DNA from: Syntrophotalea carbinolica DSM 2380
GTDB taxonomy: Bacteria; Desulfobacterota; Desulfuromonadia; Desulfuromonadales; Syntrophotaleaceae
NCBI RefSeq assembly: GCF_000012885.1
Contig: NC_007498.2
Coordinates: forward strand, 930,001-994,000
Direction of reading: 5' to 3'
DNA length: 64,000 nucleotides
Shown here: piece by piece, positions 9,476 to 28,779 of the stretch
How the letters are laid out: each line of letters starts with the position of its first letter
How positions within the stretch are numbered: position 1 is the first letter of the stretch
The notes under the pieces: generated by a model
Seen by the model: the letters and a program-made list of their open reading frames with translations, nothing else
The model's database searches: none
Told to the model about the DNA's origin: nothing
Made by a program: the position numbers and the translations under genes

Positions 9476-9551
<76 letters not shown>

Positions 9552-9571
9552 AAAACTGTATGAGGTCCATG

Positions 9572-12174: not shown

Positions 12175-12181
12175 CCCATAC

Positions 12182-13789: not shown

Positions 13790-15560
13790 TATCTTTTCCT
13801 TCCTGATTATCTGCGGTTAATTCCGTTTTCTTTCTTTTTTTTGCCCTATCGATGATCTTCCACACGCGTTCCCAGAGTTGGCTGCTGTCTTTGGCCGGGA
13901 ACCGGTCAGGATAGATGATCGATTCAGCCTCGATTCTGAGCGAAAATCCCGCTAAAATGATCTCGCTGGCTTCTTTCATAGCCTGGATCGCAATGCTTTT
14001 TGCGGCTTCGAGCCCAGCAATCGGAGCTTCGATCACTAGGGCATCGTGTACCATGGCGACGATCTTGATATTTCGCTCTGCGCAGAGGCACACGGCAAGT
14101 CGCAACATTTCCGCACCGTTTGCCTGCATCGGAAAGTTTGCCAACGTCCGGTCTTTGGTCTTGGAAGTGATCCGCATCTTCCAGCCCAAAACCCCGCCTA
14201 TACTTCCTTCGATCAACGCCTTGTTCTCGATGTCCTGCTGCCACTGCCAAAATCTGGCGTAGGTTTTCCGGTGCAAATCCAACAGCGCTTTGGCTTCCCC
14301 TTTGCTAATGTTCAGGTTCATGGCCAGTCGGTCCTGCCCCATCCCGTATTGAACTCCCAAAGCTGTAGCTTTGAACCTGCTTCTGATGTCGCCGTGACTT
14401 TCCTTCGTTGCTCCCCGAGGGGCCGCTCCGGCCTGGATTGCAAATGCAAGATAGGGGTCGCCCGAAATGTAGGCCTGTCTCATGGCTTCATCCCCCGAGA
14501 GGGCTCCGGCAATACCGAATTCCTGCTGTTCGTAGTCGAGATACGCCAAACCGTTTCCCGGCCCCGGCCGCACGAGTTTTCGCATCCACGAGGGGAGACC
14601 GAAAATACATTTGCTATTCGAAGGCTGGTTCCGCCCTGTTTTCGAGCCGAAAACCCCCGACAGATAGCGGTTACGTCCGTCCGTTCCGACCTGTAGTTTG
14701 TTCAATTTCAACTTTCCCAATAGTTGCTGCAGTTCTTTCAACGGTTTCAACTCGGGGTAACACTTGGCCATCTCCTTGAATGTATCGGCATCGGTTTTCG
14801 GTTTTCTCGTCGGCGTAAGGGGCCAAGGGATACCCTTGTTTTTCAGGTACTGAACGAAGAGGTCGGTTTTGAATTTGCCATTTTTGTAGACTCCGTATGG
14901 TGCTCCCAATTCCTCGATCAATGAGGTTTTGATTACCTCCCAGTTTTCGCGAAGATCGGCGAGCGCAAGAGTATCGATTGGAATGCCCGTCATTTCGATT
15001 TTCGCAACGGCTTTCATATATTCCCCCCGTAACAGGGACCGGTCACCATCCAGGTGAGGAACCATGTGCTTCCAGAGGCGTTCAAGGGCCAGCACGTCGC
15101 GTTGGCAGTAGTCGAGTAAGTCCGTTTTCTCATCCTCGGTATAGGGTCCCCCCCTCTGGGCCAGTTCCCGCATGTCTTTCTTCTCGACGGCATCTAGTAT
15201 TTCTTCGCCGAAATACGCCAAGGCACCAAGCAATCCTTTGCCCCTCGGTAAGAAGAAGCCGTTCGTGAGGAGGCAAAATTCCGCATACAGGTCGATGACA
15301 TAGGCCGGCAACTTCCAACCCAAAGCCTGGAAACAGGTCATTTCCGCGCTGGCCAAATAGGCAACAAAAAGAGTATTCTTGTCCGTCGGGAAGGGAGCAG
15401 CCAGCGGCTGCTCCCCCTTTTCGATCCAGACTCGCACTGTTTTCCCCGAGAAAAGTTCCTTAGCAACCAAGCAATGCGGCGTCGGCCTTTCCCCCGGAGG
15501 TTGAGAAAATTCAGAATCCAAAAGGATTACCTTTTCAAAAGGTTTTCCACAGAGGATCAT
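13779..15560 (-). CDS. Family A DNA polymerase with 3'-5' exonuclease domain
   Basis: A 593-residue protein. The N-terminus is a DnaQ-like exonuclease (VILLDSEFSQP with the first metal-binding Asp-x-Glu, then YCQRDVLALERLW). Polymerase motif A is LAYLDYEQQEFGIAGALSGD (about 350-369), motif B is RSRFKATALGVQYGMGQDRL (about 403-422) and motif C is IVAMVHDALVIEAP (about 519-532). Pol I residues for catalysis (D in motif A, HD in motif C) are present. There is no 5'-3' exonuclease domain, and at 593 residues it is much shorter than host Pol I, as in phage and plasmid enzymes. It is the middle gene of a three-gene replication operon with 4- and 11-base overlaps. Confidence 0.93.
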   Translation of the reverse strand: MILCGKPFEKVILLDSEFSQPPGERPTPHCLVAKELFSGKTVRVWIEKGEQPLAAPFPTDKNTLFVAYLASAEMTCFQALGWKLPAYVIDLYAEFCLLTNGFFLPRGKGLLGALAYFGEEILDAVEKKDMRELAQRGGPYTEDEKTDLLDYCQRDVLALERLWKHMVPHLDGDRSLLRGEYMKAVAKIEMTGIPIDTLALADLRENWEVIKTSLIEELGAPYGVYKNGKFKTDLFVQYLKNKGIPWPLTPTRKPKTDADTFKEMAKCYPELKPLKELQQLLGKLKLNKLQVGTDGRNRYLSGVFGSKTGRNQPSNSKCIFGLPSWMRKLVRPGPGNGLAYLDYEQQEFGIAGALSGDEAMRQAYISGDPYLAFAIQAGAAPRGATKESHGDIRSRFKATALGVQYGMGQDRLAMNLNISKGEAKALLDLHRKTYARFWQWQQDIENKALIEGSIGGVLGWKMRITSKTKDRTLANFPMQANGAEMLRLAVCLCAERNIKIVAMVHDALVIEAPIAGLEAAKSIAIQAMKEASEIILAGFSLRIEAESIIYPDRFPAKDSSQLWERVWKIIDRAKKRKKTELTADNQEGKDNGC

Positions 15561-16105
15561 GCCTCTTCCCCCCGGAGCTTCTTGACGATGGGGTGGTCCA
15601 GAGAACCGATCACGTTGTTTTTAAACGCCTGACGGATAAGGTTTTCAAACGTTTCGTCGGACCATACGGGTTCGGGGAAAGGTTTTGCGGCCGAGATGAT
15701 ATCGTATCCCTTCCGCGTAATGCTGCGGCGCAAGCGGACCCATTCGGTACGCGCCCGATCCATGGCTTCGAGACGGGTAGTCGCAAAGGGCTCACCGTCG
15801 TACCACGGGAGTTTGGCAACCCACAGGAATTGCTCGCCGTGCTGGTTGGCGCAGAGGGCCACTACGGCGGGGACGGCATCGCCCTCTAGCTCGTCAGCCA
15901 AGCGGGGGGAGGTGATATAGGTTTGCTTCCCCCGGGGATCGTCCAGGATCAGCAACTGCGCCAAATATTCTTTGTCAGGATGGACCCGGCAGAAATCCAG
16001 TTTTCCAGGATATCCCAGTTCGATCTCTCCTGTTTGGGGGGTAGCGGTAGCCGGTGCGGCGTAGGAGTCGGACAAAACCAAATCTTTCAAGTTGAAGTTT
16101 TCCAT
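15557..16105 (-). CDS. Conserved element protein upstream of the polymerase, unknown
   Basis: 182 residues from ATG 16105 after AGAGAGGAATTC. No domain is recognised. The middle contains alternating strands (FLWVAKLPWYDGEPF, GYPGKLDFCRVHPDKEY) and a basic helix (DRARTEWVRLRRSITRKGYD). The size, compact strands and place in front of a polymerase and a helicase ATPase (4-base overlap with the polymerase) would fit a DNA-binding or accessory replication factor, but nothing in the sequence proves it. First gene of the minus-strand operon. Confidence 0.7.
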   Translation of the reverse strand: MENFNLKDLVLSDSYAAPATATPQTGEIELGYPGKLDFCRVHPDKEYLAQLLILDDPRGKQTYITSPRLADELEGDAVPAVVALCANQHGEQFLWVAKLPWYDGEPFATTRLEAMDRARTEWVRLRRSITRKGYDIISAAKPFPEPVWSDETFENLIRQAFKNNVIGSLDHPIVKKLRGEEA

Positions 16106-16363
16106 TTGTGAATTCCTCTCTAAAAAGTAAAAGTTGTCTTCACCGCCGGGCCCTGGCGTTTCGATGGTGTAGTTGTCTCACGGAAACCGTGTAAGGTGTT
16201 GTAGTTGTGTAGGAATTCAGGTTTTTAAGGTTTTTGTGGAGGGGTTTCGGGAGAATCGACTGGCCAAACGCTTTCGGATGCTTTTTTGGCAGTCGATACT
16301 CCGCATAACTGTTTTCTTGTTTGTAACTATTTGATATGTATAGGGAAAAATTTTTGTTCTTAT

Positions 16364-16390
16364 TTGACAAGTCCTAAGTGAACACTTGGG
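16364..16390. promoter_or_regulatory. Divergent control region with inverted repeat
   Basis: TTGACA at 16364-16369 is followed by CCTAAGTG-AA-CACTTGGG (16373-16390), an imperfect inverted repeat. It lies between the leftward replication operon and the rightward HTH gene, so it is a likely operator for that protein (inference). Confidence 0.5.
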
Positions 16391-16417
16391 GTTGCTAAAA
16401 AAAACCGGGATGGTGAA

Positions 16418-17539
16418 ATGGCTAAGCGGCTAAGTCCTGAAGATAGAAGGAAAATCCATGAGTCCCCGAAAACGTATAGAGAAATTGCCGAGGAATTTGG
16501 CATCTCCGTGGCTTCGGTAGCACGATGGAAGAATCGGGAGGACTTTCGGGGACGGGGGACAATCCCTAAGTATTCCGGAAGGGTTTCGGAGTTTGAAAAA
16601 GCCGTGTTCCGGGAATGCATTTGGGTGACACGCTACCCTTACAAAAAACTGGTCGAATTTCTCGCTCCTCTTTGGAAGGAATTGCCCTCTTCCGACAGAT
16701 TGGAGCGCCTATCGTATTTCAGGGATATTCAAAAAAAGAAGGGGACAGTATCGTCCGGGAAGGCAGGAGGCCATCGAGGAAGGTACGTGCTAGAGGTTGG
16801 GGGGAAGCTTTTCAAGCCGGATGTTCCCTATAGCCCCAGAACGCTTTACCGGATTTTGAAAGAAAGCCTGGGAGATGACCTCAAGGATGTTTTTGATAGA
16901 GAAACGCCGGAGGTCGGTACTTTGGCTCTTCACGCGGTAGGGATTCAGTGGTTCGAGGCCGCCCAGGATGAAGGCTCCGCCCCCATTCCCGTGAACGGCG
17001 AAGTTCTATGTCTTTTCGAGCGGCATACCGGGATGGCCTATCTCAAGGTGTACCGCGACAGAATCAGCGCCGGCAGTCTTGCGAGCAGCGTTGGCCGGTT
17101 TCTCCGCATGTGCTCTATAGAGATCAGGGTGGTGAAGTTGGTTAACTTCTACAGCGAAAAGGGGTGGGGAGGGGAAAAGTCGACGGTCCTTCAAGATACT
17201 GAGAGTGGGATCTCGGAGATTATTCTAGGCCGGTTCGACAAAGCACCGAAGATCAATTTTGATCCCCAGAAAACACCCCATCGACCGGACAGGATCGTTC
17301 TTCCGGGGATATACCCGGACCAGAAAACCCTGGAGGTTGAGATTTTCAAGAAAACCAATCTCTACAATAGTGTGAAGCGCAAGGTGGGCAAGGGGAAGAG
17401 ATGGCAGGATTTTACTCCCCGACAAAGGCTCTGGCGAGTATATCCTCCAGACCGGAGAAGCCGCCAGGATAGGCTAGAGTTCAACCAAAGGGTATCTATT
17501 CCAATCCGGGACGATTCGTCCGGTGACGATGAGCGGTAG
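16418..17539 (+). CDS. HTH protein resembling a domesticated DDE transposase
   Basis: 373 residues. Residues 18-43 are a helix-turn-helix (TYREIAEEFGISVASVARWK). Residues about 165-250 look like the RNase H core of IS481-type transposases: LALHAVGIQWF where HVDIK..  is expected, GEVLCLFERHTGMAYLKVYR where YLFVAIDDHSRLAYVEV is expected, then IRVVKLVNFYSEKG in place of ...VLTDNGSEF. The catalytic Asp positions read Gly or Val, so transposase chemistry is unlikely. It diverges from the replication operon across an inverted repeat and may act as regulator or replication initiator. The fold match is by eye and therefore tentative; that it is a real gene is secure. Confidence 0.65.
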   Translation: MAKRLSPEDRRKIHESPKTYREIAEEFGISVASVARWKNREDFRGRGTIPKYSGRVSEFEKAVFRECIWVTRYPYKKLVEFLAPLWKELPSSDRLERLSYFRDIQKKKGTVSSGKAGGHRGRYVLEVGGKLFKPDVPYSPRTLYRILKESLGDDLKDVFDRETPEVGTLALHAVGIQWFEAAQDEGSAPIPVNGEVLCLFERHTGMAYLKVYRDRISAGSLASSVGRFLRMCSIEIRVVKLVNFYSEKGWGGEKSTVLQDTESGISEIILGRFDKAPKINFDPQKTPHRPDRIVLPGIYPDQKTLEVEIFKKTNLYNSVKRKVGKGKRWQDFTPRQRLWRVYPPDRRSRQDRLEFNQRVSIPIRDDSSGDDER

Positions 17540-17864
17540 GGAAGATTTGCGTCAGGCGAAGAGTCGTAGAGACTTCCCCACACGGTCGGCACGGTCGATA
17601 GTTTAAACTCTTTTTTCTCCTTTTCTTTTTAAAAGGAAAAAGGGAGAGGCGATCGTACCTATCGGCCGTGCATGTCTACCTATCTAGAAAGAAAGACTTT
17701 TTCCCGGTCGGTTGGCCGGTCAGTCAGCGGTGTTAATTGTCCCTGCCTCTCCCCGGCGGGGATACGTCTTAGCAATCTGAGGATTGCCCAAAACCGTAAC
17801 AAACCCCATTTCAAGCAGATATTACCTCCTTGGTGATGATCAGAACCAACCAAGGAGGCTTTCC
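17540..17864. other. Intergenic region before the RadC-group genes
   Basis: No gene is seen. A weak hairpin CCTTTTCTTTTTAAAAGGAAAAAGG (centre about 17630) could end the HTH transcript. Base composition turns GC-rich after this point, marking a module boundary. Confidence 0.3.
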
Positions 17865-18230
17865 ATGCACAAATTCAGCGATTTTTTCGATCCCCACCTC
17901 AAGCAACTTCCACTGTCCCACCGTAGCGCCGTCGAGCACGCCCTGGACCACCTCCAGGCCATCTACGGCAGCAACCCCGATCCCGAAGACCACGGCTTCG
18001 TCGCCTACGTCGAGCGCGGGGATACTCCCGTTAGCGTGTCCTGCGCCATCGGGCGGGACCTGTCCTCTGCCCTGGAGGGTGTCTTCCTCGACGGTGACTG
18101 TCTGGTCGGCGTCGTGCTGTGGGGCAATAGCGGGGCCGGCGTGACCCTCGTCTGCCCCCGGGAGAAAGACTATGCACCGCAGGTCGCCGCCATCCTCCGG
18201 GAACATCTGTGCGGGGAGGGTAGACCATGA
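17865..18230 (+). CDS. Small element protein, unknown
   Basis: 121 residues from ATG 17865, chosen because CAAGGAGG lies 7 bases upstream; a longer reading from 17784 has no RBS. The protein is acidic with a helical N-terminus (HKFSDFFDPHLKQLPLSHRS) and a strand-rich centre (LEGVFLDGDCLVGVVLWGNS). No known domain. It overlaps the DUF1232 gene by 4 bases, the first of five closely packed GC-rich genes that differ in composition from the AT-rich genes to the left. Confidence 0.7.
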   Translation: MHKFSDFFDPHLKQLPLSHRSAVEHALDHLQAIYGSNPDPEDHGFVAYVERGDTPVSVSCAIGRDLSSALEGVFLDGDCLVGVVLWGNSGAGVTLVCPREKDYAPQVAAILREHLCGEGRP

Positions 18231-18598
18231 CCGAACGCCACGACGACTACGCATCCTGCTCCGTGCACTATAGCGATGCAGACTTCTGGACCAAGCTCCG
18301 TGTCATTCCCCGATCCGCCGGACGCATTCTTCTGCTTAAGGCCCTGCTGCTGCGGGAACTGTTAGTTTCTCCCGGAGTCCCCATCTGGGTGCGGGCCGCC
18401 ATCCTCGGCGTGCTCGGCTACCTGATCCTGCCGCTGGACGCGGTGCCCGACGTGCTGCCTGTGGTGGGCTATGCCGACGATGTAGCGGCCATGACGGCGC
18501 TGCTGGGCAACGTGAACTATCTGGTCTCCGACGACATGCGCGGTAGGGCGGAACAGCGTCTGACGCGGTTGCTCGGCGACGGAAAGGAGTCCCCGTGA
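18227..18598 (+). CDS. DUF1232 (YkvA-like) membrane protein
   Basis: 123 residues with the DUF1232 signature LGYLILPLDAVPDVLPVVGY followed by ADDVAAM (about 63-90): a short hydrophobic hairpin with conserved D, P and D residues. YkvA-like proteins are small, membrane-associated and of unknown role; some relatives accompany Mg transport or toxin modules. It overlaps both neighbours by 4 bases (ATGA and GTGA), so it is firmly in the same operon. Confidence 0.85.
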   Translation: MTERHDDYASCSVHYSDADFWTKLRVIPRSAGRILLLKALLLRELLVSPGVPIWVRAAILGVLGYLILPLDAVPDVLPVVGYADDVAAMTALLGNVNYLVSDDMRGRAEQRLTRLLGDGKESP

Positions 18599-18969
18599 TC
18601 CGATTGACCTCGACCGCCCAGGCCCAAATTCTTGAAGACCGTATCCCCCCTCTGGCAGTACTGCGCATGGCCCAGTTCGAAGGGACGGACGGTTTGTACG
18701 ATCCGGAACGCCATGGCCATATCGTGGTTCTGGAACCCGGCGACGATGTGGAAAAGGATTTCCCCGAAGCCGGTCCGGGAGGATTGCTGTCCGGACCGGA
18801 GGAGGTTCTCTTCGACTACGTGTTCGCCTACCGGGAAGGCGAGAGCGCCGTGTACGAGGCGGTCATCCAGATCGACGACGACAGAACCCTGACCCTGATC
18901 ATCCCCGACGCTCCTTGGCTGCACACCGGTCTGCGTCTTCAGCTCGAAGCGCTGGCCGAAATCGCCTGA
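18595..18969 (+). CDS. Small acidic element protein, unknown
   Basis: 124 residues from GTG 18595, which overlaps the DUF1232 stop and follows GGAAAGGAG. The C-terminal third alternates strands (ESAVYEAVIQIDDDRTLTLI, IPDAPWLHTGLRLQLEALAE), and the whole protein is strongly acidic. No domain recognised. It is followed by a terminator, so this ends the first transcript of the small-gene group. Confidence 0.65.
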   Translation: MIRLTSTAQAQILEDRIPPLAVLRMAQFEGTDGLYDPERHGHIVVLEPGDDVEKDFPEAGPGGLLSGPEEVLFDYVFAYREGESAVYEAVIQIDDDRTLTLIIPDAPWLHTGLRLQLEALAEIA

Positions 18970-18994
18970 CCTTTTGTTCCGCCCTAACAGATAG

Positions 18995-19028
18995 GCCCAT
19001 TCCTTCGCGGGAATGGGCTTTTGTCTTT
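18995..19028 (+). terminator. Terminator before radC
   Basis: GCCCATTCC pairs with GGAATGGGC around TTCGCG, followed by TTTTGTCTTTT. Confidence 0.88.
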
Positions 19029-19058
19029 TGTATCCGAAATTTCAGGAGGATTGTCACC

Positions 19059-19559
19059 ATGACCGAAGTCATCACATCCCTGTCCGAACCTTTGTCCCTG
19101 ATCCGGCGCAAGCTGCCTTTGCGCCTGAAAGTCATCCGTCCCGTGTTCGAGACGCTCAAAGTTAAGGAGCTTCCCGCTGGCTACCTGGACGAAGCCTTCA
19201 CCTCTCCCCGGAAGGTGGCCGAAATGCTCGCCTTCCTGAAAGCGGAGAGCAAGGAGTATTTCATGGCCCTGCACCTGGACAACAAGAACCGTCTGCTGTG
19301 TCTGGACCGGGTGTCCGTCGGCAGTCTCAGCGCCAGCATCGTCCATCCCCGCGAGGTCTTCAAGAGTGCTCTGCTGTCCTCGGCGGCCGGTCTGGTGCTG
19401 GTCCACAATCACCCCTCCGGTCAGACCGAACCCAGCCACGAGGACGAGGAGGTCACGACCCGGTTAGTCAAGGCCGGGGAGATGCTGGGCATCCATGTTC
19501 TCGACCACATCATCCTGGGCGACGGGTTCTTCTCGTTTGCCGAACAGGGCCTGCTTTGA
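19059..19559 (+). CDS. radC: RadC-like JAB domain protein
   Basis: 166 residues with the JAMM/RadC metal motif: ESKEYFMALHLDNKNRLL (the Glu), then LVLVHNHPSGQTEPSHEDEE (HxH...S..D), which would bind one zinc. The HhH N-terminal part of chromosomal RadC is missing, as is common in copies on integrative elements and pathogenicity islands. Biochemical role is unproven; a nuclease or repair role is often assumed. ATG 19059 follows AGGAGGA; a longer open reading from 18915 runs through the terminator and is rejected. It forms a pair with the DUF2787 gene 14 bases on. Confidence 0.9.
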   Translation: MTEVITSLSEPLSLIRRKLPLRLKVIRPVFETLKVKELPAGYLDEAFTSPRKVAEMLAFLKAESKEYFMALHLDNKNRLLCLDRVSVGSLSASIVHPREVFKSALLSSAAGLVLVHNHPSGQTEPSHEDEEVTTRLVKAGEMLGIHVLDHIILGDGFFSFAEQGLL

Positions 19560-19573
19560 AAGGAGTATCCGAC

Positions 19574-20014
19574 ATGTCCGACCGAACTTCAGCTTCCCGA
19601 GAAGACTCTCCCACGAGATTCAATACCCGATCCTTTCCGCTCCCGATACATCCCAAACTGGCCAAAATCCTTGAAGACGAAATCCGGAAGGCCGACGTTC
19701 CGGAGGGGAAGGGGCTGGTTCTGAACTTTCGGGACCCACACTATTCCGCCCTGGAGGGTGGCTACCATCCGGTGGAGATCGCCGTCGCGGCTGACGGGAG
19801 CATTCTGTACGTGACCGATTTTCTCTATCTCGGCCAACCTCCCTACGCCGAACTGGTCAAGGACCTCGACTTCGACGCGTCGCTGGGACTGTTCCAGCAG
19901 GGCGGGATCGACTTCCCCCTGGAAGAGGGGGCCGGGATGTTCGAGCTGTGGCAGCACAATTTCTGCGTGTACTACCGCATGGGGGTGTTCCGGGTCGAGG
20001 TCGAACCGCTGTGA
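19574..20014 (+). CDS. DUF2787 family protein
   Basis: 146 residues. The family pattern is clear: LVLNFRDPHYSALEGGYHPV (about 48-67), ILYVTDFLYLGQPPYAELVK and MFELWQHNFCVYYRMGVFRV at the end. DUF2787 proteins are frequent next to RadC on integrative elements; no activity is known. ATG 19574 follows AAAGGAG. The 14-base gap after radC and the terminator after it indicate a two-gene transcript. Confidence 0.85.
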   Translation: MSDRTSASREDSPTRFNTRSFPLPIHPKLAKILEDEIRKADVPEGKGLVLNFRDPHYSALEGGYHPVEIAVAADGSILYVTDFLYLGQPPYAELVKDLDFDASLGLFQQGGIDFPLEEGAGMFELWQHNFCVYYRMGVFRVEVEPL

Positions 20015-20028
20015 CCCAGAGGTAGAAA

Positions 20029-20067
20029 AAGGGTGGGGGCGTAGAGCCGTCTGCCTCCCCCTTTTTT
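20029..20067 (+). terminator. Terminator after the DUF2787 gene
   Basis: An imperfect stem AAAAAGGG(T)GGGGGC / GCC(T)CCCCCTTTTTT ending in six T. Confidence 0.7.
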
Positions 20068-20109
20068 GCCCGGAAAGGAGGAGACACCTCTGGTCGAAAC
20101 CCACCTTCC

Positions 20110-20127
20110 GGACCGCTAGTGGACCGC
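20110..20127. repeat. Variant integrase arm-type repeat near integrase 1
   Basis: GGACCGCTAGTGGACCGC, differing from the other four copies only in the 4-base spacer. No attachment core lies beside it. Confidence 0.55.
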
Positions 20128-20237
20128 CGGATGCCCGGAGGCAACCAACATTCTATTGGATTTCAACCCATTTGGAGGGAAGAGCGACTGACTCAATATC
20201 AGTTCCATCGAAAAAATGTCCCCGGAGGAGGAGAACT

Positions 20238-21428
20238 ATGGCGAACACGAACCGAACCATTTCCCTGACCAAAAAGGCCATCGACGGCCTTCCGTCCCAC
20301 GATCCAGCCGGAACACAGGCTACGGCCACGGAGTATTCGACCGGCGAACCGGGCCTGCATATCTGCGTCAACATGCGGGGCAATAAGCGCTGGCTGTTCC
20401 GCTATCGGCTCTACGGGCGGAAGAAGGCCGTCGCCATTGGACCCTATCCGGCCATCGAGCCGCCTCTGGCCAAACAGATGGCCAACGAGATGCAGCGCAA
20501 TCTGGCCCTCGGAGAACCTGTCGTATCCCCCAGGGCGCAGCAGAAACAGCAGAAGGCTTTTGGCGAGTTTGCCCGGGAGTATCTGGAGCATGCCAAGCAG
20601 ACCAAGAAATCGTGGAAGGACGACTACAATAAGCTCACCAATCAGATCATTCCCAAGTGGGGCGAGGTGCCGCTGACCTGTCTGACGCCGAAGGAGATCC
20701 AGGGGTATCTGAATCAGGTCAAGGCCCGCACCTCGGGGACCAACGCCAACCGGCACTATGCCGTGTTGAATGTCCTCTACAATCTGGCTGTGAAGTGGGG
20801 CGAGATCGATCCGGGGAAGAACCCGATGCCCGGGGTGTCCAAGTTCCGGGACAATCCGGGACGGACACGCTACCTGAGCATGGAGGAGTGCAAGCGTTTT
20901 CTGGCGGCCCTGGAGGAGGTGCCGGGGCAGCTGGCGGCCTGTGCCCTGAGATTACTTCTGTTCACGGGTTGCCGTGCGGGGGAGGTGCTCAAGAGCAAAT
21001 GGGAGGATGTGTCCATGGAAGGGCGGACCATGCTTCTTCCCGAGACCAAGAACGGCAAGTCGCGGGTGGTCCATCTCAATCCGCTGAGTCTTGCCGAGAT
21101 TGAGAAGCTTAAGGCCTTCCGGCAGCCGAACAACCCCTATCTGTTTCCGGGGAGTTCGGAGGATAAGCCGCTGGGAACGGTGCGCAAGACCTTCGAGCAT
21201 GCGCTTAAACTGGCGGGGCTTGAGGGAACGGATGTGGTCATTCACACCCTGCGGCATACCCATGCCAGCTTGCTGGCCAACCTGGGGGAATCGCTGGAGA
21301 CGATCAAGGTTAGTTTGGGGCACAGTTCGGTGAAGATGACGGAGAGGTATGCCCATATCTCCGGTAGCAAGACCAGGGACGCTTCGGACCATTTGGCTGA
21401 GCAGTTAAAAGTGGTGATGAATCAATAA
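20238..21428 (+). CDS. int: Tyrosine integrase of element A
   Basis: 396 residues. The N-terminal 85 residues are the arm-binding DUF4102-type domain (LTKKAIDGLPSHDPAGTQAT, then WLFRYRLYGRKKAVAIGPYP), followed by a SAM-like core-binding domain (about 105-190) and the catalytic domain: LLLFTGCRAGEVLKSKWEDV (Arg I), VIHTLRHTHASLLANLGESL (HxxR) and LGHSSVKMTERYAHI (nucleophile Tyr). P4-type integrases of this class recombine at tRNA genes. Start ATG 20238 follows GGAGGAGGAG. It is about 95 percent identical by eye to the second integrase at 25296-26486, so both should use the same tRNA-Thr core. Confidence 0.95.
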   Translation: MANTNRTISLTKKAIDGLPSHDPAGTQATATEYSTGEPGLHICVNMRGNKRWLFRYRLYGRKKAVAIGPYPAIEPPLAKQMANEMQRNLALGEPVVSPRAQQKQQKAFGEFAREYLEHAKQTKKSWKDDYNKLTNQIIPKWGEVPLTCLTPKEIQGYLNQVKARTSGTNANRHYAVLNVLYNLAVKWGEIDPGKNPMPGVSKFRDNPGRTRYLSMEECKRFLAALEEVPGQLAACALRLLLFTGCRAGEVLKSKWEDVSMEGRTMLLPETKNGKSRVVHLNPLSLAEIEKLKAFRQPNNPYLFPGSSEDKPLGTVRKTFEHALKLAGLEGTDVVIHTLRHTHASLLANLGESLETIKVSLGHSSVKMTERYAHISGSKTRDASDHLAEQLKVVMNQ

Positions 21429-21433
21429 TGATG

Positions 21434-21470
21434 ACAGCATTCCCTCTCTAGCGGGGAATGCTGTCTTTTA
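21434..21470 (+). terminator. Terminator of integrase 1
   Basis: ACAGCATTCCC pairs with GGGAATGCTGT around 8 bases, followed by CTTTTA. Similar in layout to the one after integrase 2. Confidence 0.8.
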
Positions 21471-21497
21471 GCGTGTTGTCTTCAATTCGGGAACGTT

Positions 21498-21920
21498 CTA
21501 GGCGATTCGCGTACCCATTCGCATATCTTCCGGGGAAATCCGGGACTTTGCATCAAATGCCCTGATGTAAGCGTCCCTCTCCCAGGACCAGGCTTCCTCG
21601 ATGGTGTAATCCACATCGTAGCGAATCCAGATCAGCACGTCCCAGTCATAATTGCGGACCTTGCCGGCATTGGTGATCCTGCTGCCCGGCTTGCCGCTGG
21701 GGCGGTGGGCCTTGATCTGGTAGCGTCCCCCCCGGAAAACGAAATCGTGACCTCTCGCTACGGCGGTTTTATCCTGCATATACGAAGAGTACTCTTCTTC
21801 GCTCATGCCCAGAATCATCGCCGCATCATACTCGGAAACCGCCGATGTGATCGCCGGTGCCACGCCGTACTTTTCTTGCCACTTCAATGCGAGTGCAACC
21901 AGTTGATCTCTTAGAGTCAT
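21498..21920 (-). CDS. Hypothetical protein with restriction-nuclease-like strand motif
   Basis: 140 residues from ATG 21920, preceded by GGGAGG; the extra 10 residues of the longer frame have no RBS. The segment HDFVFRGGRYQIKAHRPSGK (about 60-80), with D...Q-x-K spacing, followed by NYDWDVLIWIRYD, recalls the PD-(D/E)XK nuclease core (D-x-n-[DEQ]-x-K). The N-terminal helix LRDQLVALALKWQEKYGVAP is seen in proteins linked to restriction genes, but no methyltransferase is near. Function not established. Confidence 0.6.
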   Translation of the reverse strand: MTLRDQLVALALKWQEKYGVAPAITSAVSEYDAAMILGMSEEEYSSYMQDKTAVARGHDFVFRGGRYQIKAHRPSGKPGSRITNAGKVRNYDWDVLIWIRYDVDYTIEEAWSWERDAYIRAFDAKSRISPEDMRMGTRIA

Positions 21921-22031
21921 GGTGTCCTCCCGGAAGAGCAAACTCCGCAAAACCCAAAAAAGGTCCTGCGGGGTTTAACGTCACTGATTTTGTTTGACAG
22001 CTCGGAAAAACGCTGCGCACATTTATTAATC

Positions 22032-22128
22032 CTCTCCGCCGCCCGGGACGATGATGTCGTCAGAACTCTCCGCCGCCCGGGACGATGATGTCGTCAGAAC
22101 TCTCCGCCGCCCCGGACGATGATGTCGC
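22032..22128. repeat. 34-bp tandem repeat at the 3' end of a secreted-protein gene
   Basis: About three copies of a 34-base unit starting CTCTCCGCCGCCCGGGACGA, at 22032, 22066 and 22100 (the last diverged). Because 34 is not a multiple of 3, each added copy changes the reading frame and the C-terminus. Confidence 0.8.
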
Positions 22129-22842
22129 GTCGGAGATGCTCCCCAGACTCTGCAGCAAACCCGCAATGACGTTGTTAACCGGATCGTCTTCGCGGTGACG
22201 GCGGATCAGCGGTTTCTGCGTGCCGAAGTAGTAGCGGGCGCCGGCTAGTACGTGGTCGTAGTCGTCATCTCCGAGCGCCCCGTCGACGAACACTGCCAGA
22301 CCGGCCACCACCTGGTACTCCGCGCCGAGGTGTACGCGCTCATCATCATCGGCGATGCTGCCGCCGAGTTCCAGCTTCAGGTCGTCCAGCGGATACCAGC
22401 GCAGATCGAGGCTGCCGAATCCGGCATCGTCCACATCCCCCTCCTGCAGGCCGCCCAGCGCCGCCACGGTGATGCGGCCGACGTAATATTCGCCCTCCAG
22501 GGCGTAGCGGCGCATCTCGTAATCCTCCAGTTCCGCGTGGGAGACGTTGAACCCGAGCAGATACCTGGACGGATCGCGGGCGAACAGGTGCAGCCCCATA
22601 CCGCTGATTTCGTCGTCGCCGTCCAGCTCGCCCCAGGCTCCGTCGAGCTGCAGCCCGAGCAGGTCGCCCAGGGGCACCGAGACGCTGCCCGCGCCGATGA
22701 TCGCCCCGTCGTCGTCGACGCTGCCGCCGAACACTTCGGCCTTGCCGTTTAATGTCGAAACCGCAGGGCCCTGCGCCATCGCCGTGCCGGCGAACAGGGT
22801 CAGAAAAAGAGCTAAAATAACACTGCTCAAACGCTGCTTCAT
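22060..22842 (-). CDS. Secreted/outer-membrane beta-rich protein, copy 1
   Basis: 260 residues from ATG 22842 (GGAGG at 5 bases). Residues 1-24 are a signal peptide (SSVILALFLTLFAGTAMAQ). The mature part is acidic with regular amphipathic strands (LLGLQLDGAWGELDGDDEIS, RYALEGEYYVGRITVAALGG, LRWYPLDDLKLELGGSIADD) and an aromatic-rich strand VLAGARYYFG, typical of a small outer-membrane beta barrel. The C-terminal 40 residues are Ser/Asp-rich, and the stop falls inside a 34-bp tandem repeat. The paralogue at 23843-24625 is roughly 85-90 percent identical. Exact role unknown; porin-like or surface adhesion roles are possible. Confidence 0.72.
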   Translation of the reverse strand: MKQRLSSVILALFLTLFAGTAMAQGPAVSTLNGKAEVFGGSVDDDGAIIGAGSVSVPLGDLLGLQLDGAWGELDGDDEISGMGLHLFARDPSRYLLGFNVSHAELEDYEMRRYALEGEYYVGRITVAALGGLQEGDVDDAGFGSLDLRWYPLDDLKLELGGSIADDDERVHLGAEYQVVAGLAVFVDGALGDDDYDHVLAGARYYFGTQKPLIRRHREDDPVNNVIAGLLQSLGSISDATSSSGAAESSDDIIVPGGGEF

Positions 22843-22968
22843 GGCAACCTCCATACCGGAAAAAGCACCGATGAAAAAGGGTCTTTCCGGCTTTTCAATG
22901 ATTGTTTTTGTTTCACATGTCGGAACCGGAAACGGACATTTTTGTCCCATTACCGACTAATCTTTCGA

Positions 22969-23703
22969 CTATGCGGAAGGCAATAGGTCAACCAGGAACT
23001 TCCGGGCAACTTTGGCTTTTTGGGCGTAAGCCGATGGATGATGAATCCGGAAACAACGGATGCTGTCAAACAAATCGAACTCCCATAGCTGTCCATTGGG
23101 GATGCCCTGATCGGAATAATCACGCCCGTTATGGCAAACCTTGTTATCCCCTGCGATCGGGAAAAATTCCCTGCGGTAGGGGACCGAATCCATCCCGTTG
23201 GCGAAAATAATGATGTCCGGTGCGAAAAACCGGATCTGTAGTTTTACCAATTGCTCGGAGAATTTTTTGATTGTTTCAAAATAGGGGCAACCTATCGGAC
23301 TTCCCTTTTTCCAATCGAAACAGAAAAGATTGGAATAGATGATCCCTTCCTTTCCACATTTCTTCGCCACGGCTCTGGTGAAGTTATGAAAGGTCTGTCC
23401 CCGAGAGTTTCTTATGTTGAGTTGTTTTTCGAAAAACTCCCGGTGTTTGGTCAGTGCCTTCTCGATATAACTTGAGAGGGTTGTAAACTCCTCCTGAATA
23501 TTCCTGTTTAGTACGTTCCATCCGGCTGTTTCCCTGCCGATAATCATGATCTTATTCTTTGCAGCTTTGTACTGTTTCGGAATGCTGGTCAAAAATAGTC
23601 CGGAGAGTCCCTCCTCTCTTCTCCCTGAGGGATGATGAGGATCGAGAAATGAGACGTCTAAATCTTTCAGAATTTCGCGGTATTCGTTGGCAAGCTCTTG
23701 CAT
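22969..23703 (-). CDS. Uracil-DNA-glycosylase-fold hypothetical protein
   Basis: About 244 residues. The pattern resembles the UDG superfamily: a first strand with IMIIGRETAGWNV (about 51-63), a middle strand PDIIIFANGMDSVP and a late FRIHHPSAYAQK with the H-P-S block where the family carries its catalytic loop. SNLFCFDWKKGSPIG could be the aromatic pocket. Similar genes are annotated only as hypothetical. ATG 23703 is chosen over GTG 23715 because AAAAGGTG lies upstream at workable distance. It is inserted between two copies of a duplicated secreted-protein gene and is more AT-rich than they are, so it was probably acquired separately. Confidence 0.6.
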   Translation of the reverse strand: MQELANEYREILKDLDVSFLDPHHPSGRREEGLSGLFLTSIPKQYKAAKNKIMIIGRETAGWNVLNRNIQEEFTTLSSYIEKALTKHREFFEKQLNIRNSRGQTFHNFTRAVAKKCGKEGIIYSNLFCFDWKKGSPIGCPYFETIKKFSEQLVKLQIRFFAPDIIIFANGMDSVPYRREFFPIAGDNKVCHNGRDYSDQGIPNGQLWEFDLFDSIRCFRIHHPSAYAQKAKVARKFLVDLLPSA

Positions 23704-23842
23704 GTCCACTTTCACCTTTTCAAATCATAGGTATGAGCCCCGGAAAAAGCAGGGCCCTCCCCCGGGGACTTCGATTTCCAATTTTGATTGACAGCCCGGA
23801 AACAGCCCCGGCAAACTCTCCTAAAAGAACTCCCCGGTGCCG

Positions 23843-24625
23843 CTAGAAGAGTCCGCCGCCCGGGACGATGATGCCGTCAGAACTCTCCGCCGCCCGGGAC
23901 GATGATGCCGCGTCGGAGATACTCCCCAGGCTCTGCAGCAGCCCCGCGACGATGTTGTTGGCCGGATCGTCCTCGCGGTGGCGCCGGATCAGTGGTTTCT
24001 GGGCCCCGAAGTAGTAGCGGGCACCGGCCAGCACGTGGTCGTAATCGTCATCCCCCAGCGCCCCGTCGACGAATACCGCCAGACCGGCCACCACCTGATA
24101 TTCCGCACCGAGGTGTACGCGCTCGTCGTCATCGGCGATGCTGCCACCGAGTTCCAGCTTCAGGTCGTCCAGCGGATACCAGCGCAGGTCAAGACTGCCG
24201 AACCCGGCATCGTCCACATCTCCCTCCTGCAGGCCGCCCAGTGCCGCCAGGGTGAAGCGTCCTGCGTAGTATTCGCCCTCCAGGGCGTAGCGGCGCATCT
24301 CGAAATCCTCCAGCTCCGCGTGGGAGATGTTGAACCCGAGCAGGTAGCGTGACGGATCGCGGGCGAACAGGTGCAGCCCCATGCCGCTGATTTCGTCGTC
24401 GCCGTCCAGCTCGCCCCAGGCCCCGTCGAGCTGCAGCCCGAGCAAATCGCCCAGGGGCACCGAGACGCTGCCCGCGCCGATGATCGCCCCGTCGCCGTCG
24501 ACGCTGCCGCCGAACACTTCGGTCTTGCCGTTCAGGGCGGAAACCGCCGGGCCTTGCGCCATCGCCGTGCCGGCGAACAGGGTCAGAAATAGACCGAGAA
24601 CCACTCCGTAAAAATGACTCTTCAT
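23843..24625 (-). CDS. Secreted/outer-membrane beta-rich protein, copy 2
   Basis: 260 residues from ATG 24625 with GGAGG upstream. It has a signal peptide (LFLTLFAGTAMAQ) and is the paralogue of 22060-22842; nearly every strand is shared, with scattered substitutions (for example FEMRRYALEGEYYAGRFTLA for YEMRRYALEGEYYVGRITVA). The 3' end contains two copies of the same 34-base unit as copy 1 and ends GGGLF. The two copies flank a UDG-like gene, consistent with duplication followed by insertion. First gene to the left of the element A end; no partner gene points to a pathway. Confidence 0.72.
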   Translation of the reverse strand: MKSHFYGVVLGLFLTLFAGTAMAQGPAVSALNGKTEVFGGSVDGDGAIIGAGSVSVPLGDLLGLQLDGAWGELDGDDEISGMGLHLFARDPSRYLLGFNISHAELEDFEMRRYALEGEYYAGRFTLAALGGLQEGDVDDAGFGSLDLRWYPLDDLKLELGGSIADDDERVHLGAEYQVVAGLAVFVDGALGDDDYDHVLAGARYYFGAQKPLIRRHREDDPANNIVAGLLQSLGSISDAASSSRAAESSDGIIVPGGGLF

Positions 24626-24866
24626 GGCAACCTCCACACTAGGTGAAATAATTTCGAAATGTTACAAATAAACGCCGACTAAGATATCACCAGCATTGGA
24701 GTGTGCCAAGAAAAAAGCACCGGATTTTTTGTCGTGGCAAGTCTTGGGGGAGTGTGGATGGCGGAATGAAATGGCGGAGTAGGCCGATGCCCGGACGGTG
24801 TGATGGAGCCCCTTTTTCAGGGAGAGTTTTTAGAGTTTTGTAGGAATGGAAAGGGAACAGGAGCGT
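24626..24866. other. Noncoding left end of element A
   Basis: No gene seen. The sequence carries the promoter region of the secreted-protein gene and leads into the element's arm repeat at 24867. Confidence 0.4.
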
Positions 24867-24884
24867 GGACCGCAGATGGACCGC
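24867..24884. repeat. Integrase arm-type repeat, left end of element A
   Basis: GGACCGCAGATGGACCGC about 110 bases left of core 2. The following ~120 bases are closely matched at 28216-28341, the corresponding end of element B. Confidence 0.7.
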
Positions 24885-24956
24885 AGGTTCCGGTGGTGGG
24901 GCTGTGGATGTTTGCGGAAAGTTACGAAAGGTGATGGAAAATAAGGAAAACTAGAA

Positions 24957-24984
24957 ACGAAAAAACGCCCTAATATCAGGCGTT
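24957..24984 (-). terminator. Element-end terminator reading out of tRNA half copy 2
   Basis: AACGCC pairs with GGCGTT around 8-9 bases; reading leftward it ends in six T. It lies 8 bases past the end of the tRNA half. Confidence 0.75.
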
Positions 24985-24991
24985 TGAAGAT

Positions 24992-25029
24992 TTACGAATC
25001 AGTTGCTCTACCAGCTGAGCTAGGGTGGC
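24992..25029 (-). repeat. tRNA-Thr 5' half (attachment core 2)
   Basis: Identical to the 5' half of tRNA-Thr from base 1 to the anticodon loop (GCCACCCTAGCTCAGCTGGT...CTGATTCGTAA), then diverges. Its promoter is kept: TTGACA (25073-25078), 17 bases, TAAATA (25050-25055) on the minus strand. With the hairpin at 24957-24984 this predicts an RNA of about 80 nt. Confidence 0.85.
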
Positions 25030-25225
25030 AAAACTGTATGAGGTCCATGTATTTAGCGCAAAACGGGCGGGATGTCAATCTCTTTCGGGGAGGAGGGGAG
25101 GATGGAGAAAGCCATGTTTTTCAAGGGCCGGAGAGGGAAGTTGCGCATCGGCGGAAGAGGGCAGAGGGTTTTGCGTATTTTTTCGAGGGAATAGAAAGGT
25201 CGAGAGAATTCTCAGAGCATTTTGC

Positions 25226-25243
25226 GGACCGCAGATGGACCGC
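25226..25243. repeat. Integrase arm-type repeat, element B right of core 2
   Basis: GGACCGCAGATGGACCGC about 230 bases from the core, 53 bases before the integrase start. Confidence 0.7.
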
Positions 25244-25295
25244 CGAAAGCATGGTATCAGTTCCATCGAAAAAATGTCCCCGGAGGAGGAGAACT

Positions 25296-26486
25296 ATGGC
25301 GAACACGAACCGATCCATTCCACTGACCAAAAAGGCCATCGACGGCCTTCCGTCCCACGATCCAGCCGGAACACAGGCTACGGCCACGGAGTATTCGACC
25401 GGCGAACCGGGCCTGCATATCTGCGTCAACATGCGGGGCAATAAGCGCTGGCTGTTCCGCTACCGGCTCTACGGGCGGAAGAAGGTCGTCGCCATCGGAC
25501 CCTATCCGTCCATCGAGCCCCCTCTGGCCAAGCAGATGGCCAACGAGATGCAGCGCAATTTGGCCCTCGGAGAACGGGTGGTATCCCCGAGAGCGCAGCA
25601 GAAACAGCAGAAGACCTTTGGCGAGTTTGCCCGGAAGTATCTGGAGCACGCCAAGCAGACCAAGAAATCGTGGAAGGATGACTACAATAAGCTCACCAAT
25701 CAGATTATTCCCAAGTGGGGCGAGGTGCCGCTGACCTGCCTGACGCCGAAGGAGATCCAGGGATATTTGAATCAGGTCAAGGCCCGCACCTCGGGGACCA
25801 ACGCCAACCGGCACTATGCCGTGTTGAATGTCCTCTACAATCTGGCGGTGAAGTGGGGCGAAATCGACCCGTGGAAGAACCCGATGCCTGGGGTGTCCAA
25901 GTTTAGGGACAATCCGGGACGGACGCGCTACCTGAGCATGGAGGAGTGTAAGCGGTTCCTGGCGGCCCTGGAGGAGGCGCCTGGTCAGCTAGCGGCCTGT
26001 GCCCTGAGATTGCTTCTGTTCACGGGTTGCCGTGCGGGGGAGGTACTCAAGAGCAAATGGGAGGATGTGTCCATGGAGGGGCGGACCATGCTTCTTCCCG
26101 AGACAAAAAACGGCAAGTCGCGGGTGGTCCATCTCAATTCGCTGAGTCTTGCCGAGATCGAGAAGCTCAAGGACTTCCGGAACCCTAGCAATCCCTATCT
26201 GTTCCCCGGGAGTTCGGAGGATAAGCCGCTGGGGACGGTGCGCAAGACCTTCGAGCACGCGCTGAAGCTGGCGGGGTTGCAGGGGACGGATGTGGTCATC
26301 CACACCCTGCGCCACACCCATGCCAGTCTGTTGGCCAACCTGGGGGAATCGCTGGAGACGATCAAGGTAAGTCTGGGGCACAGCTCGGTTAAAATGACCG
26401 AGAGGTATGCCCATATTTCCGGTAGCAAAACCAAGGACGCTTCGGACCATCTGGCCGAGCAGTTAAAAGAGGTGATGAATCAGTAA
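25296..26486 (+). CDS. int: Tyrosine integrase of element B
   Basis: 396 residues, same layout as integrase 1: DUF4102-type arm-binding N-domain, SAM-like core-binding domain, and catalytic blocks LLLFTGCRAGEVLKSKWEDV, VIHTLRHTHASLLANLGESL and LGHSSVKMTERYAHI with the nucleophile Tyr. ATG 25296 follows CGGAGGAGGAG. A longer frame back to 24984 is only read-through of the attachment core and is rejected. It sits directly beside core 2 and the arm repeat, the usual place of an integrase next to its attP. Differences from integrase 1 are scattered conservative changes, so both look functional and likely cross-act. Confidence 0.95.
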   Translation: MANTNRSIPLTKKAIDGLPSHDPAGTQATATEYSTGEPGLHICVNMRGNKRWLFRYRLYGRKKVVAIGPYPSIEPPLAKQMANEMQRNLALGERVVSPRAQQKQQKTFGEFARKYLEHAKQTKKSWKDDYNKLTNQIIPKWGEVPLTCLTPKEIQGYLNQVKARTSGTNANRHYAVLNVLYNLAVKWGEIDPWKNPMPGVSKFRDNPGRTRYLSMEECKRFLAALEEAPGQLAACALRLLLFTGCRAGEVLKSKWEDVSMEGRTMLLPETKNGKSRVVHLNSLSLAEIEKLKDFRNPSNPYLFPGSSEDKPLGTVRKTFEHALKLAGLQGTDVVIHTLRHTHASLLANLGESLETIKVSLGHSSVKMTERYAHISGSKTKDASDHLAEQLKEVMNQ

Positions 26487-26489
26487 AAA

Positions 26490-26527
26490 TGTAGCGTTCC
26501 CCTACCAGTTGGGGAACGCTACATTTT
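26490..26527. terminator. Bidirectional terminator between integrase 2 and the flagellin gene
   Basis: TGTAGCGTTCCCC pairs with GGGGAACGCTACA. A runs on the left and T runs on the right serve both converging genes. The flagellin stop codon lies inside the right arm. Confidence 0.85.
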
Positions 26528-27994
26528 CAAAAGCTCTAGAGAAATCTGCGGGAGACTGTTGGCTTGGGCCATGATTGACGCCCCTGCTTGCTGTAGGACA
26601 TCTGCCTTGGTTAGCTCAGAGACTTCAGTAGAAAAATCTGCATCCAGAATGCGACTTAGGGATGCCGAATTTGCTTCGCGACCAGCTGCCGTGGCGCTGA
26701 TACGTCCCTCTAAAGAGGTCATGGTAGCGCCGTAATAGCTACGGTGGTTGTCCATAATCTGGAGAGCTTCAGCCAATTTTGTTAGAGCAATTTCGGCTGC
26801 TTCCGGAGGGTCGATGACAACTGACTCAAGGCCTAATGCTGCTAGGTCTGCAGGGGTTTTTTGTATGTCGATATAGTCACTATCGGAGTTGGCGGTTGTG
26901 TTGGCCAATATTTTCATTGTCTGTGGGATAGTTTGAGTGGCTTGCCCCGACGACGGCTCTGGCATATTGCTCCACTCAGCAATTAATCTTACCTGCCCCG
27001 CACCATGGGCAAATACCAAGAGGTCTTCGGTTGCCTCATCTACGGTGAATTGTTCTCTTGCTTGGGTTGAAAATACTATTCCATTGTTTATCTCTGGATC
27101 ACCACCCGGTGCGATGGATTCAAAACTATCCCCATCTCCACTATAGGTAAAATTCATTCCTCCGTAGCTTCCGGTGTTGGCAAAAGCACCCATTCCAAGA
27201 TGGTCGACAAATAGGAGATTTGTAGGATCATAGGCAGCGCCTGAAGCGAAACCATTGGATTCGGAAATGAAGAGAGTGTTCATGTCTTGAGCGTTGTTGA
27301 CGCCATTAGATTCCCAGGTAAAATCGCCCAATCCCGTTCCGACGAGATGTTTCCCATCTACCGTGAAAACCTGAATATCAATATCTGGCTGGTATGGATT
27401 GCCTAGCCACTCTGGTGCAACATCGACCATAACATTAGTCGCTCCCTGGGGAATTTTTGCAATAGGCGAAAGATCTGGATCAATCAATGTTATTCCACTT
27501 GTTATGCCGCCGGCTGTGCTTGTTTCACTGAAAACTTCACCGAGACTTGGAACCACGGCCGTGTTACTGGAATCCCCTCCTAAAGGATACTGCCCAAACA
27601 TAGATGATGTTTGTGCCAATTGGTCGATCTGCTCCTTGATTTGACCGAATTCTTCGTTCAGAGATTGTCGATCACTGTCTGACAGCGTACTGTTTGCTGC
27701 TTGCACAGCCAATTCCCTGCCCCTCTGAATGAGATTGCCTATCTCCTCAAGGGTTGCGTCGGCAAACTGGGCATAGCCGACCCCTTGATTGAGGTTTTCA
27801 ATGACCTTGTTTTGGGATCGGATCTCGGTTTGGACTCGGTTGCTTTTTGCTAATCCTGCGGGATCATCTTTGGCGCTGTTGATCCGGAGACCGGAAGATA
27901 GTCGCCGCATGGCATCGGCCTGTGATTTGTTGGTTTTTCCGAGATTGTTTTGGACGATTTGCGCAAGGGGATTGGTGTTGATGACAAAAGGCAT
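26519..27994 (-). CDS. fliC: Flagellin carried on element B
   Basis: 491 residues. The conserved N-terminal D0/D1 region is complete (INTNPLAQIVQNNLGKTNKS, RRLSSGLRINSAKDDPAGLA, NRVQTEIRSQNKVIENLNQG), as is the C-terminal one (NHRSYYGATMTSLEGRISAT, ILDADFSTEVSELTKADVLQ, then QAGASIMAQANSLPQISLEL). These coil together to form the filament core and the export signal. The centre (about 140-390) is variable, Gly/Asp-rich and lacks Cys. ATG 27994 follows GAGGAG. A sigma-28 promoter is upstream. The last residues LLKM and the TAG stop lie in the terminator. No other flagellar gene is in the window, so it must rely on a chromosomal flagellar system. Confidence 0.93.
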   Translation of the reverse strand: MPFVINTNPLAQIVQNNLGKTNKSQADAMRRLSSGLRINSAKDDPAGLAKSNRVQTEIRSQNKVIENLNQGVGYAQFADATLEEIGNLIQRGRELAVQAANSTLSDSDRQSLNEEFGQIKEQIDQLAQTSSMFGQYPLGGDSSNTAVVPSLGEVFSETSTAGGITSGITLIDPDLSPIAKIPQGATNVMVDVAPEWLGNPYQPDIDIQVFTVDGKHLVGTGLGDFTWESNGVNNAQDMNTLFISESNGFASGAAYDPTNLLFVDHLGMGAFANTGSYGGMNFTYSGDGDSFESIAPGGDPEINNGIVFSTQAREQFTVDEATEDLLVFAHGAGQVRLIAEWSNMPEPSSGQATQTIPQTMKILANTTANSDSDYIDIQKTPADLAALGLESVVIDPPEAAEIALTKLAEALQIMDNHRSYYGATMTSLEGRISATAAGREANSASLSRILDADFSTEVSELTKADVLQQAGASIMAQANSLPQISLELLKM

Positions 27995-28030
27995 AGTGGC
28001 TCCTCGTGGTTTGTTTGCCTTACTACATTA

Positions 28031-28057
28031 TTATCGACCAACCTCCTAAAGACTTTA
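28031..28057 (-). promoter_or_regulatory. Sigma-28 (FliA) promoter of the element flagellin
   Basis: On the minus strand TAAAGTCT (28050-28057), 11 bases and GTCGATAA (28031-28038), against the consensus TAAAGTTT-N11-GCCGATAA. Confidence 0.85.
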
Positions 28058-28215
28058 GAAAAATTAATAAAACGGCTTTTTATTGGTTTTTTCTTTTTGA
28101 TGAGGGGGGAGGCTGGGCGCATTTTGGCACCAAGGAGCGTGTTGTGATTCTATTCGCTATGTGCTTGAGAGGGACAGGCGGTCAAAAACGATTTGGTCCA
28201 AGGGAACAAGGTTGT

Positions 28216-28233
28216 GGACCGCAGATGGACCGC
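28216..28233. repeat. Integrase arm-type repeat, left end of element B
   Basis: GGACCGCAGATGGACCGC about 110 bases left of core 3; the flanks match 24867-24990. Confidence 0.7.
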
Positions 28234-28308
28234 AGGTTCCGGTGGTGGGGCCGTGGATGTTTGCAGGGATTTGCGAAAGTTGATGAAAAATAAGGGGAAT
28301 CAGAAACA

Positions 28309-28334
28309 AAAAAACGCCCTAATATCGGACGTTT
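28309..28334 (-). terminator. Element-end terminator reading out of tRNA half copy 3
   Basis: Same hairpin as at 24957-24984 but with a bulged A in one arm (AACGCC / GGACGTT), followed leftward by a T run. Weaker than copy 2. Confidence 0.6.
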
Positions 28335-28341
28335 GAAGGCT

Positions 28342-28378
28342 TGCGAATCAGTTGCTCTACCAGCTGAGCTAGGGTGGC
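28342..28378 (-). repeat. tRNA-Thr 5' half (attachment core 3, outer chromosomal end)
   Basis: Matches the tRNA 5' half to the anticodon loop but reads TTCGCAAG where the intact gene has TTCGTAAT. The promoter is kept (TTGACA 28438-28443, TAAATA 28415-28420) with a 17-base duplication of the GAGGTTCATG region between promoter and tRNA. Homology to the element ends stops at about 28455, so beyond this is original chromosome. Confidence 0.8.
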
Positions 28379-28779
28379 AAAACTGTATGAGGTTCATGCT
28401 GCGTGAGGTTCATGTATTTAGCGCAAAACGGATGGGATGTCAATCTCTTTCGGGGATGGGATCAAACCTGAGCTACTCCATGCTCGGGCGGGGTCAGGGA
28501 CTGTCCGGGAGTTGCGACCGACGCGGTATGTTGCTGAATTTTGTAGACGGGTAATTTCCGGTACGCTGTTGCGAAAAGATTAAATAGATGGTTGGTCAGG
28601 TGAAATTCATTGGGAAAACCTTTTATTTGTTGTAGAGTGTCTTTATTCATTGCAAACCATCTTGGTCAGGATACATTTTAAATGGTTTGCGGAGATACCG
28701 CGGTTTGACAAGTGCGGTTTTCATATGGGGATTTTCCGTTTAACATCGCAACGCGTTTGGAACGATGAAGGAGGTTGTT
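28379..28779. other. Chromosomal junction and mscS leader
   Basis: After the tRNA-half promoter no gene is seen. TTGACA occurs at about 28707, but no well-placed -10 box is clear. Confidence 0.4.

Follow-up and report, generated by a model that had tools for sequence, protein, structure and literature searches.

Introduction

FRphi, a 53.5-kb lambda-like Enterobacter prophage, encodes the flagellin FliCP together with TldR, an RNA-guided repressor of the host flagellin, and prophage-borne flagellins replace the host filament; its authors looked for a role in phage resistance and judged it unlikely (PMC13418256). Flagellinolysins are flagellins with a conserved functional centre, and whole-gene lateral transfer has been described for them (PMC5595980). 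In E. coli flk/fln strains fliC is inactivated, and a new flagellin gene is considered to bring no advantage until it lies within a functional regulatory system (PMC7018530). Here we describe a locus in Syntrophotalea carbinolica DSM 2380 (contig NC_007498.2), within a stretch of 64,000 nucleotides (forward-strand positions 930,001 to 994,000; hereafter the window, in whose coordinates positions are given), where a 3,349-bp element, called B, was found to hold an integrase gene and a complete flagellin gene. In E. coli, work reportedly by Feng in 2008 and Liu in 2012 is said to have placed flkA in a genomic islet and to have ascribed variation at the flnA loci to recombinase-mediated excision.

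Like FRphi, element B is mobile DNA with an integrase gene that supplies a divergent, alternative flagellin, one that would use the host flagellar machinery. However, B measures 3.3 kb, lacks phage structural genes and encodes nothing like TldR, nor was a guide detected: the longest match of B to the host flagellin region was 10 nt, as in shuffled sequences, and an Rfam scan of B gave no match. As neither a repressor of the host flagellins nor a guide-like match was found, B could add to the filament but not replace it. The E. coli flkA and flnA systems share with B a second flagellin at an extra locus, whereas B is bounded by tRNA-derived cores, consists of two genes only and stands in a host whose own flagellins are intact. 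The plasmid flagellins of Pantoea are full-length homologues that are likewise unlinked to flagellar clusters and preceded by sigma-28 promoters, but they lie on large plasmids among metabolic genes, with no adjoining integrase or tRNA site. Flagellinolysins, too, have a conserved functional domain in their centre, but this is a metallopeptidase, and the centre of the B flagellin matches no Pfam domain above cut-off. B is real, intact and unusual; phages and E. coli offer related ideas, but the minimal two-gene integrase-flagellin form is not known from them. We think it fairly probable that B is a small integrative element whose single cargo is a secondary flagellin, additive to those of the host and bearing a binding outer domain.

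Attachment Sites and Integrase of Element B

The features that define B and its tandem neighbor, the larger element A, are as follows.

9476..9551, minus strand: intact tRNA-Thr(CGT), the integration target (ARAGORN); core at 9517-9558
9517..24994, unstranded: sister element A, in tandem with B, 15,478 bp
20238..21428, plus strand: integrase A, 96% amino acid and 93% nucleotide identity to integrase B
24995..28343, unstranded: element B, 3,349 bp from one core to the next, its ends homologous to those of element A
24995..25036, plus strand: attachment core separating A from B, tRNA 5′ half only
25227..25243, plus strand: arm-type repeat GACCGCAGATGGACCGC, left arm of B
25296..26486, plus strand: tyrosine integrase B, 396 aa, Arm-DNA-bind_3 and Phage_integrase (5.8e-29)
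26486..26527, unstranded: perfect 17-bp inverted repeat, a bidirectional terminator between convergent genes (-29.5 kcal/mol, z -9.2)
28217..28233, plus strand: arm-type repeat GACCGCAGATGGACCGC, right arm of B
28344..28385, plus strand: attachment core closing B at its far end; beyond it lies the original upstream flank of the tRNA

The extent that an initial annotation of this DNA had given for B, 24995-28343, proved correct to the base, as it runs between identical 42-bp cores. Three such cores, with 0 mismatches among them, start at 9517, 24995 and 28344, and 0 are expected in shuffled sequence. The core is the 5′ half of tRNA-Thr(CGT), running outward from the anticodon loop, and just one copy belongs to a complete tRNA (9476-9551), the other two standing without an intact one. 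In elements that use tRNA genes the repeat is usually the 3′ half of the tRNA; the half repeated at the ends of these elements is the 5′ half. Since the diverged original upstream region of the tRNA stands to the right of the core at 28344, the elements bring with them a replacement tRNA 5′ half and upstream region. Both ends bear GACCGCAGATGGACCGC, of which there are four exact copies in all, against a mean of 0.3 expected when up to 3 mismatches are allowed, and this repeat is probably the arm site of the integrase.

Only two genes were recognised in B, as had been claimed; both are intact, and the flagellin reads toward the integrase, its stop codon falling inside the 17-bp inverted repeat. 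The catalytic motifs of the integrase are all present, namely R (TGCRAGE), K (KNGKSR), HxxR (HTLRHT) and H...Y (GHSSVKMTERY), and a phage-family integrase with intact catalytic residues is combined with tRNA direct repeats at both ends, one of them in an intact tRNA. Between the two integrases, of A and of B, 61 codons differ synonymously and 16 non-synonymously, from which it follows that both have been under selection since they split. A stretch of ~200 bp to the right of the core at 9517 shares 92% identity with its counterpart beside the core at 24995, and a stretch of ~145 bp to the left of the core at 24995 shares 88% with its counterpart beside the core at 28344; A and B thus each possess the left and right end of one element type. 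The tRNA adjoining A is complete, and B was probably inserted first, with A later entering in the space separating B from the tRNA. Such tandem insertions are ordinary.

A Secondary Flagellin with Its Own Promoter

The cargo of B comprises the following features.

26519..27994, minus strand: flagellin, 491 aa, Flagellin_N 5.1e-31 and Flagellin_C 1.7e-13, both above curated cut-offs
26789..27598, minus strand: conserved outer (central) domain, flagellin residues 133-402, common to some 60 secondary flagellins and Halomonas FlgK
28031..28057, minus strand: sigma-28-type promoter TAAAGTCT-N11-GTCGATAA, ~60 nt before the flagellin start codon

Both terminal helical regions of a flagellin (PF00669 and PF00700) lie in the one open frame. 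Scored against a sigma-28 consensus of 16 bases (TAAAGTTT-N11-GCCGATAA), the promoter matches at 14, the best among the 128,000 positions of the window, where the next best reaches 12; the host-type sigma-28 promoter proposed at the outset therefore stands. It is nearly as strong as that of the host fliC2, TAAAGTTT-N11-GCCGATAT (15/16), and host fliC1 has no clear sigma-28 promoter match. The host genome (3,665,893 bp, single contig) does not have a single conserved fliC devoid of attachment cores: besides the 42-bp cores it contains three flagellins, of which one has an open frame of 491 aa and the other two have frames of 284-286 aa, and a fourth flagellin-type match is FlgL-like. The flagellin of B is thus additional to two ordinary ones, as had been suggested. 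The genome paper also lists three flagellin genes, one of them longer (PMC3543383). Because it is the only longer flagellin in the genome, that of B is probably the fliC3 of Aklujkar et al. (2012). Its GC content is 48.4% (45.9% at third codon positions), compared with 54.5% for the window and 78.1% at third codon positions for integrase B. To judge from this composition, and from full-length homologues that are mostly in other phyla, the gene is foreign to the genus.

A Conserved Outer Domain in Several Phyla

A scan with the central domain returned 61 loci, in Enterobacterales, Halomonadaceae, Alteromonadales, Castellaniella, Desulfovibrio and others, and the family, whose members include those of Pantoea, Kosakonia, Halomonas, Alteromonas and Desulfovibrio, lies mostly outside flagellar clusters. 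The outer domain shares 31-39% identity with that of B over ~250 aa in most members, is about as conserved as the D0/D1 ends and has 21 invariant positions in a 49-sequence alignment. The intact D0/D1 ends described in the initial annotation were confirmed by the Flagellin_N and Flagellin_C matches, but the variable centre that it described turned out to be a conserved domain of secondary flagellins. In its sequence conservation this domain would be unlike an antigenically driven hypervariable region. All 12 family genomes that were checked (12/12) have further flagellins besides the family member, and most members elsewhere score 13-15 for a sigma-28 promoter about 55-66 nt upstream of the start codon, a score of at least 13 occurring in about 1% of random 300-bp stretches. 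On plasmids of Pantoea and Duffyella, tblastn found full-length matches with 34-36% identity and 99% coverage; their loci are unrelated and adjoin metabolic genes. More generally, the Pfam families of 76 genes neighboring family loci are metabolic and mixed, with no flagellar family among the 25 commonest. Flagellin matches in phage records were set aside as evidence, most of these records being unannotated or small fragments.

Nearer to the host the domain is rare. Among 395 genomes drawn from the phylum it occurs only in B itself and one further genome, and the only full-length relative of the B flagellin in the same order, in genome G044, is split by an insertion sequence. This relative spans the end of one contig and the start of another (L026 and L062; C54 and C45), where an apparent insertion sequence is flanked by a 9-bp target duplication, GCACGAAAC. 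In a tree of the outer domain B falls on a long branch of uncertain placement, so that no donor is named.

At three Halomonas loci it is FlgK that contains the domain as an insertion. These FlgK proteins (hook-associated protein 1, about 900 aa), from Halomonas-type genomes, are encoded at L094 1781-4579, L101 8627-11335 and L123 8588-11314. The domain is therefore common to secondary flagellins of Desulfuromonadales, Desulfovibrio and Gammaproteobacteria and to Halomonas FlgK, and its shared occurrence and conservation suggest a binding module displayed on the filament rather than an immune-driven variable region. An AlphaFold model of the domain built from 49 sequences is beta-rich (predicted local distance difference test, pLDDT, 74.8). 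VIA-align ranked CspA (Z 7.7), ADAMTS13 (7.5) and collagenase domains (5.5-6.5) highest, all under the level of trust that the tool advises; the top ranks are jelly-roll and PPC-like domains, including collagen-binding domains of collagenase, again below the safe threshold. With the PPC profile the best score was 13.4, in a Pantoea homologue, against a cut-off of 25.9. Binding to a polymer or surface is therefore no more than the leading guess. A weak likeness to HisF in a PDB sequence search with a 6-row profile (E 0.0035) was gone with 49 rows and was discarded, and a single-sequence fold of the whole flagellin (pLDDT 38) was unusable.

A Model for Element B and Its Alternatives

The model proposes that B inserts into the anticodon loop of tRNA-Thr(CGT) by means of its tyrosine integrase, supplying a replacement for the tRNA 5′ half and upstream region, and that it may still be mobile today. 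Its flagellin would be transcribed from the sigma-28 promoter that B carries, and the flagellar machinery of the host would export and polymerise it together with the two ordinary flagellins; the outer domain, a predicted beta-sandwich, would be displayed on the filament, where it most likely binds a surface or polymer. A two-gene element with a complete flagellin and a sigma-28 promoter is a concrete way round the constraint that a new flagellin must lie within a functional regulatory system (PMC7018530), and through B a bacterium could acquire a new filament protein in a single step. A wider proposal, by which stand-alone integrative cassettes, as a spreading mode not recognised before, deliver self-promoting secondary flagellins whose conserved outer domain makes part of the filament an adhesive fibre, with flagellin and FlgK exchanging this domain, is speculative and rather doubtful.

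Several observations weigh against the model. Integrases at least 96% identical to that of B occur only within this genome, the next relatives being at most 42% identical, and when integrase relatives were collected from 136 genomes in the order and from 277 in the class, their 1.5-kb flanks held no flagellin. Viral contigs were searched with both proteins, one search giving weak results and the other nothing, and an integrase search of a wider genome-contig collection gave no confirmed case. A search for integrases and tRNAs up to 10 kb from the 61 family loci gave one strong integrase match, in L101, about 7 kb from an FlgK and not from a flagellin. As no second integrase-flagellin pair was found, recent mobility of B rests on one genome. 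The initial annotation had envisaged an element family that shuttles flagellin variants and had proposed a search for the same integrase family beside flagellins at tRNA sites; the pairing was found in this genome only, and the idea of shuttling is not upheld. Expression is a further difficulty: in microarrays fliC3 was not differentially expressed, and fliC1 and fliC2 rose about 10-20-fold (PMC3543383). To the extent that the B flagellin is taken to be fliC3, this speaks against the simple co-regulation with the flagellins of the host that had been expected; fliC3 may be silent, steady or active at some other time. Nor does B have a recognised excisionase gene. Finally, Foldseek comparison of the outer domain with the PDB and viral models gave nothing significant (best E 0.13).

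The expression data and the missing excisionase would also fit an explanation that is possible but distinctly less probable than not, in which B is a dead or stranded remnant of an A-like element, reduced by deletions to an integrase and a silent, unassembled flagellin. The tandem position of B beside a larger sister with a related integrase is compatible with such an origin, as is the disruption of the homologous flagellin in G044. However, both genes of B are intact and the promoter is near consensus, the two genes converge closely on a perfect terminator, and both ends of the element are complete, with cores and arms. It is quite improbable that B is instead an antigen- or phage-receptor-switching cassette, as initially suggested, by which the filament surface would be replaced for a change of serotype or escape from flagellotropic phage. 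A full flagellin with a different outer domain and a sigma-28 promoter could serve this end, and FRphi offers a precedent for replacement, but B has neither a recognisable repressor of the host flagellins nor a guide against them, its outer domain is conserved across phyla and not diversified, no variant cassette with a different centre turned up at this tRNA, and phage escape was judged unlikely even for FRphi. We therefore favour an additive, surface-binding minor flagellin over switching. It is highly improbable that the flagellin gene is no cargo but a piece of the ordinary host chromosome that came to lie between tRNA-derived repeats. Flagellins are common chromosomal genes, and those of this family adjoin ordinary metabolic genes in other species, but the gene in B lies inside the element's conserved right end (88% match of 28200-28343 to that of A), contrasts in composition and has no full-length homologue in the other genomes of the genus that were searched.

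Element A and Other Islands at tRNA-Thr

The tRNA-Thr(CGT) gene is a hot spot with exchangeable cargo. Two other species of the genus share the left end and its arm repeat, which G116 has in exact and G114 in degenerate form, and island-type duplications of the same tRNA 5′ end occur elsewhere in the order, a second 5′ half lying at 34.7 kb in G001, at 2.6 kb in G119 and 36 kb away in G113. The stretches read at the same tRNA in relatives contain no flagellin. The G119 island (L181, C305 613-3280), from the intact tRNA-Thr(CGT) to the second 5′ half, has three open frames and no recognised integrase. In G113, a relative within the genus, a separate 13.7-kb contig (C2) bears a 28-bp tRNA-Thr core (L143 3116-3143) and is possibly an unintegrated element with its attachment site.

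Element A also encodes a family A DNA polymerase and RadC, and at 10322-12006 a GmrSD_N protein adjoins a HEPN protein, probably as a defence pair. About 10.4 kb (9770-20197) separate its left arm from its integrase, and a weaker arm-like repeat, GACCGCTAGTGGACCGC, stands at 20111, just before integrase A, so that two elements may be combined in A. The position that the flagellin takes in B is held in A by two near-duplicate proteins (22060-22950 and 23843-24637), which have apparent signal peptides and no Pfam match, and the cargo may be of a surface type in both elements.

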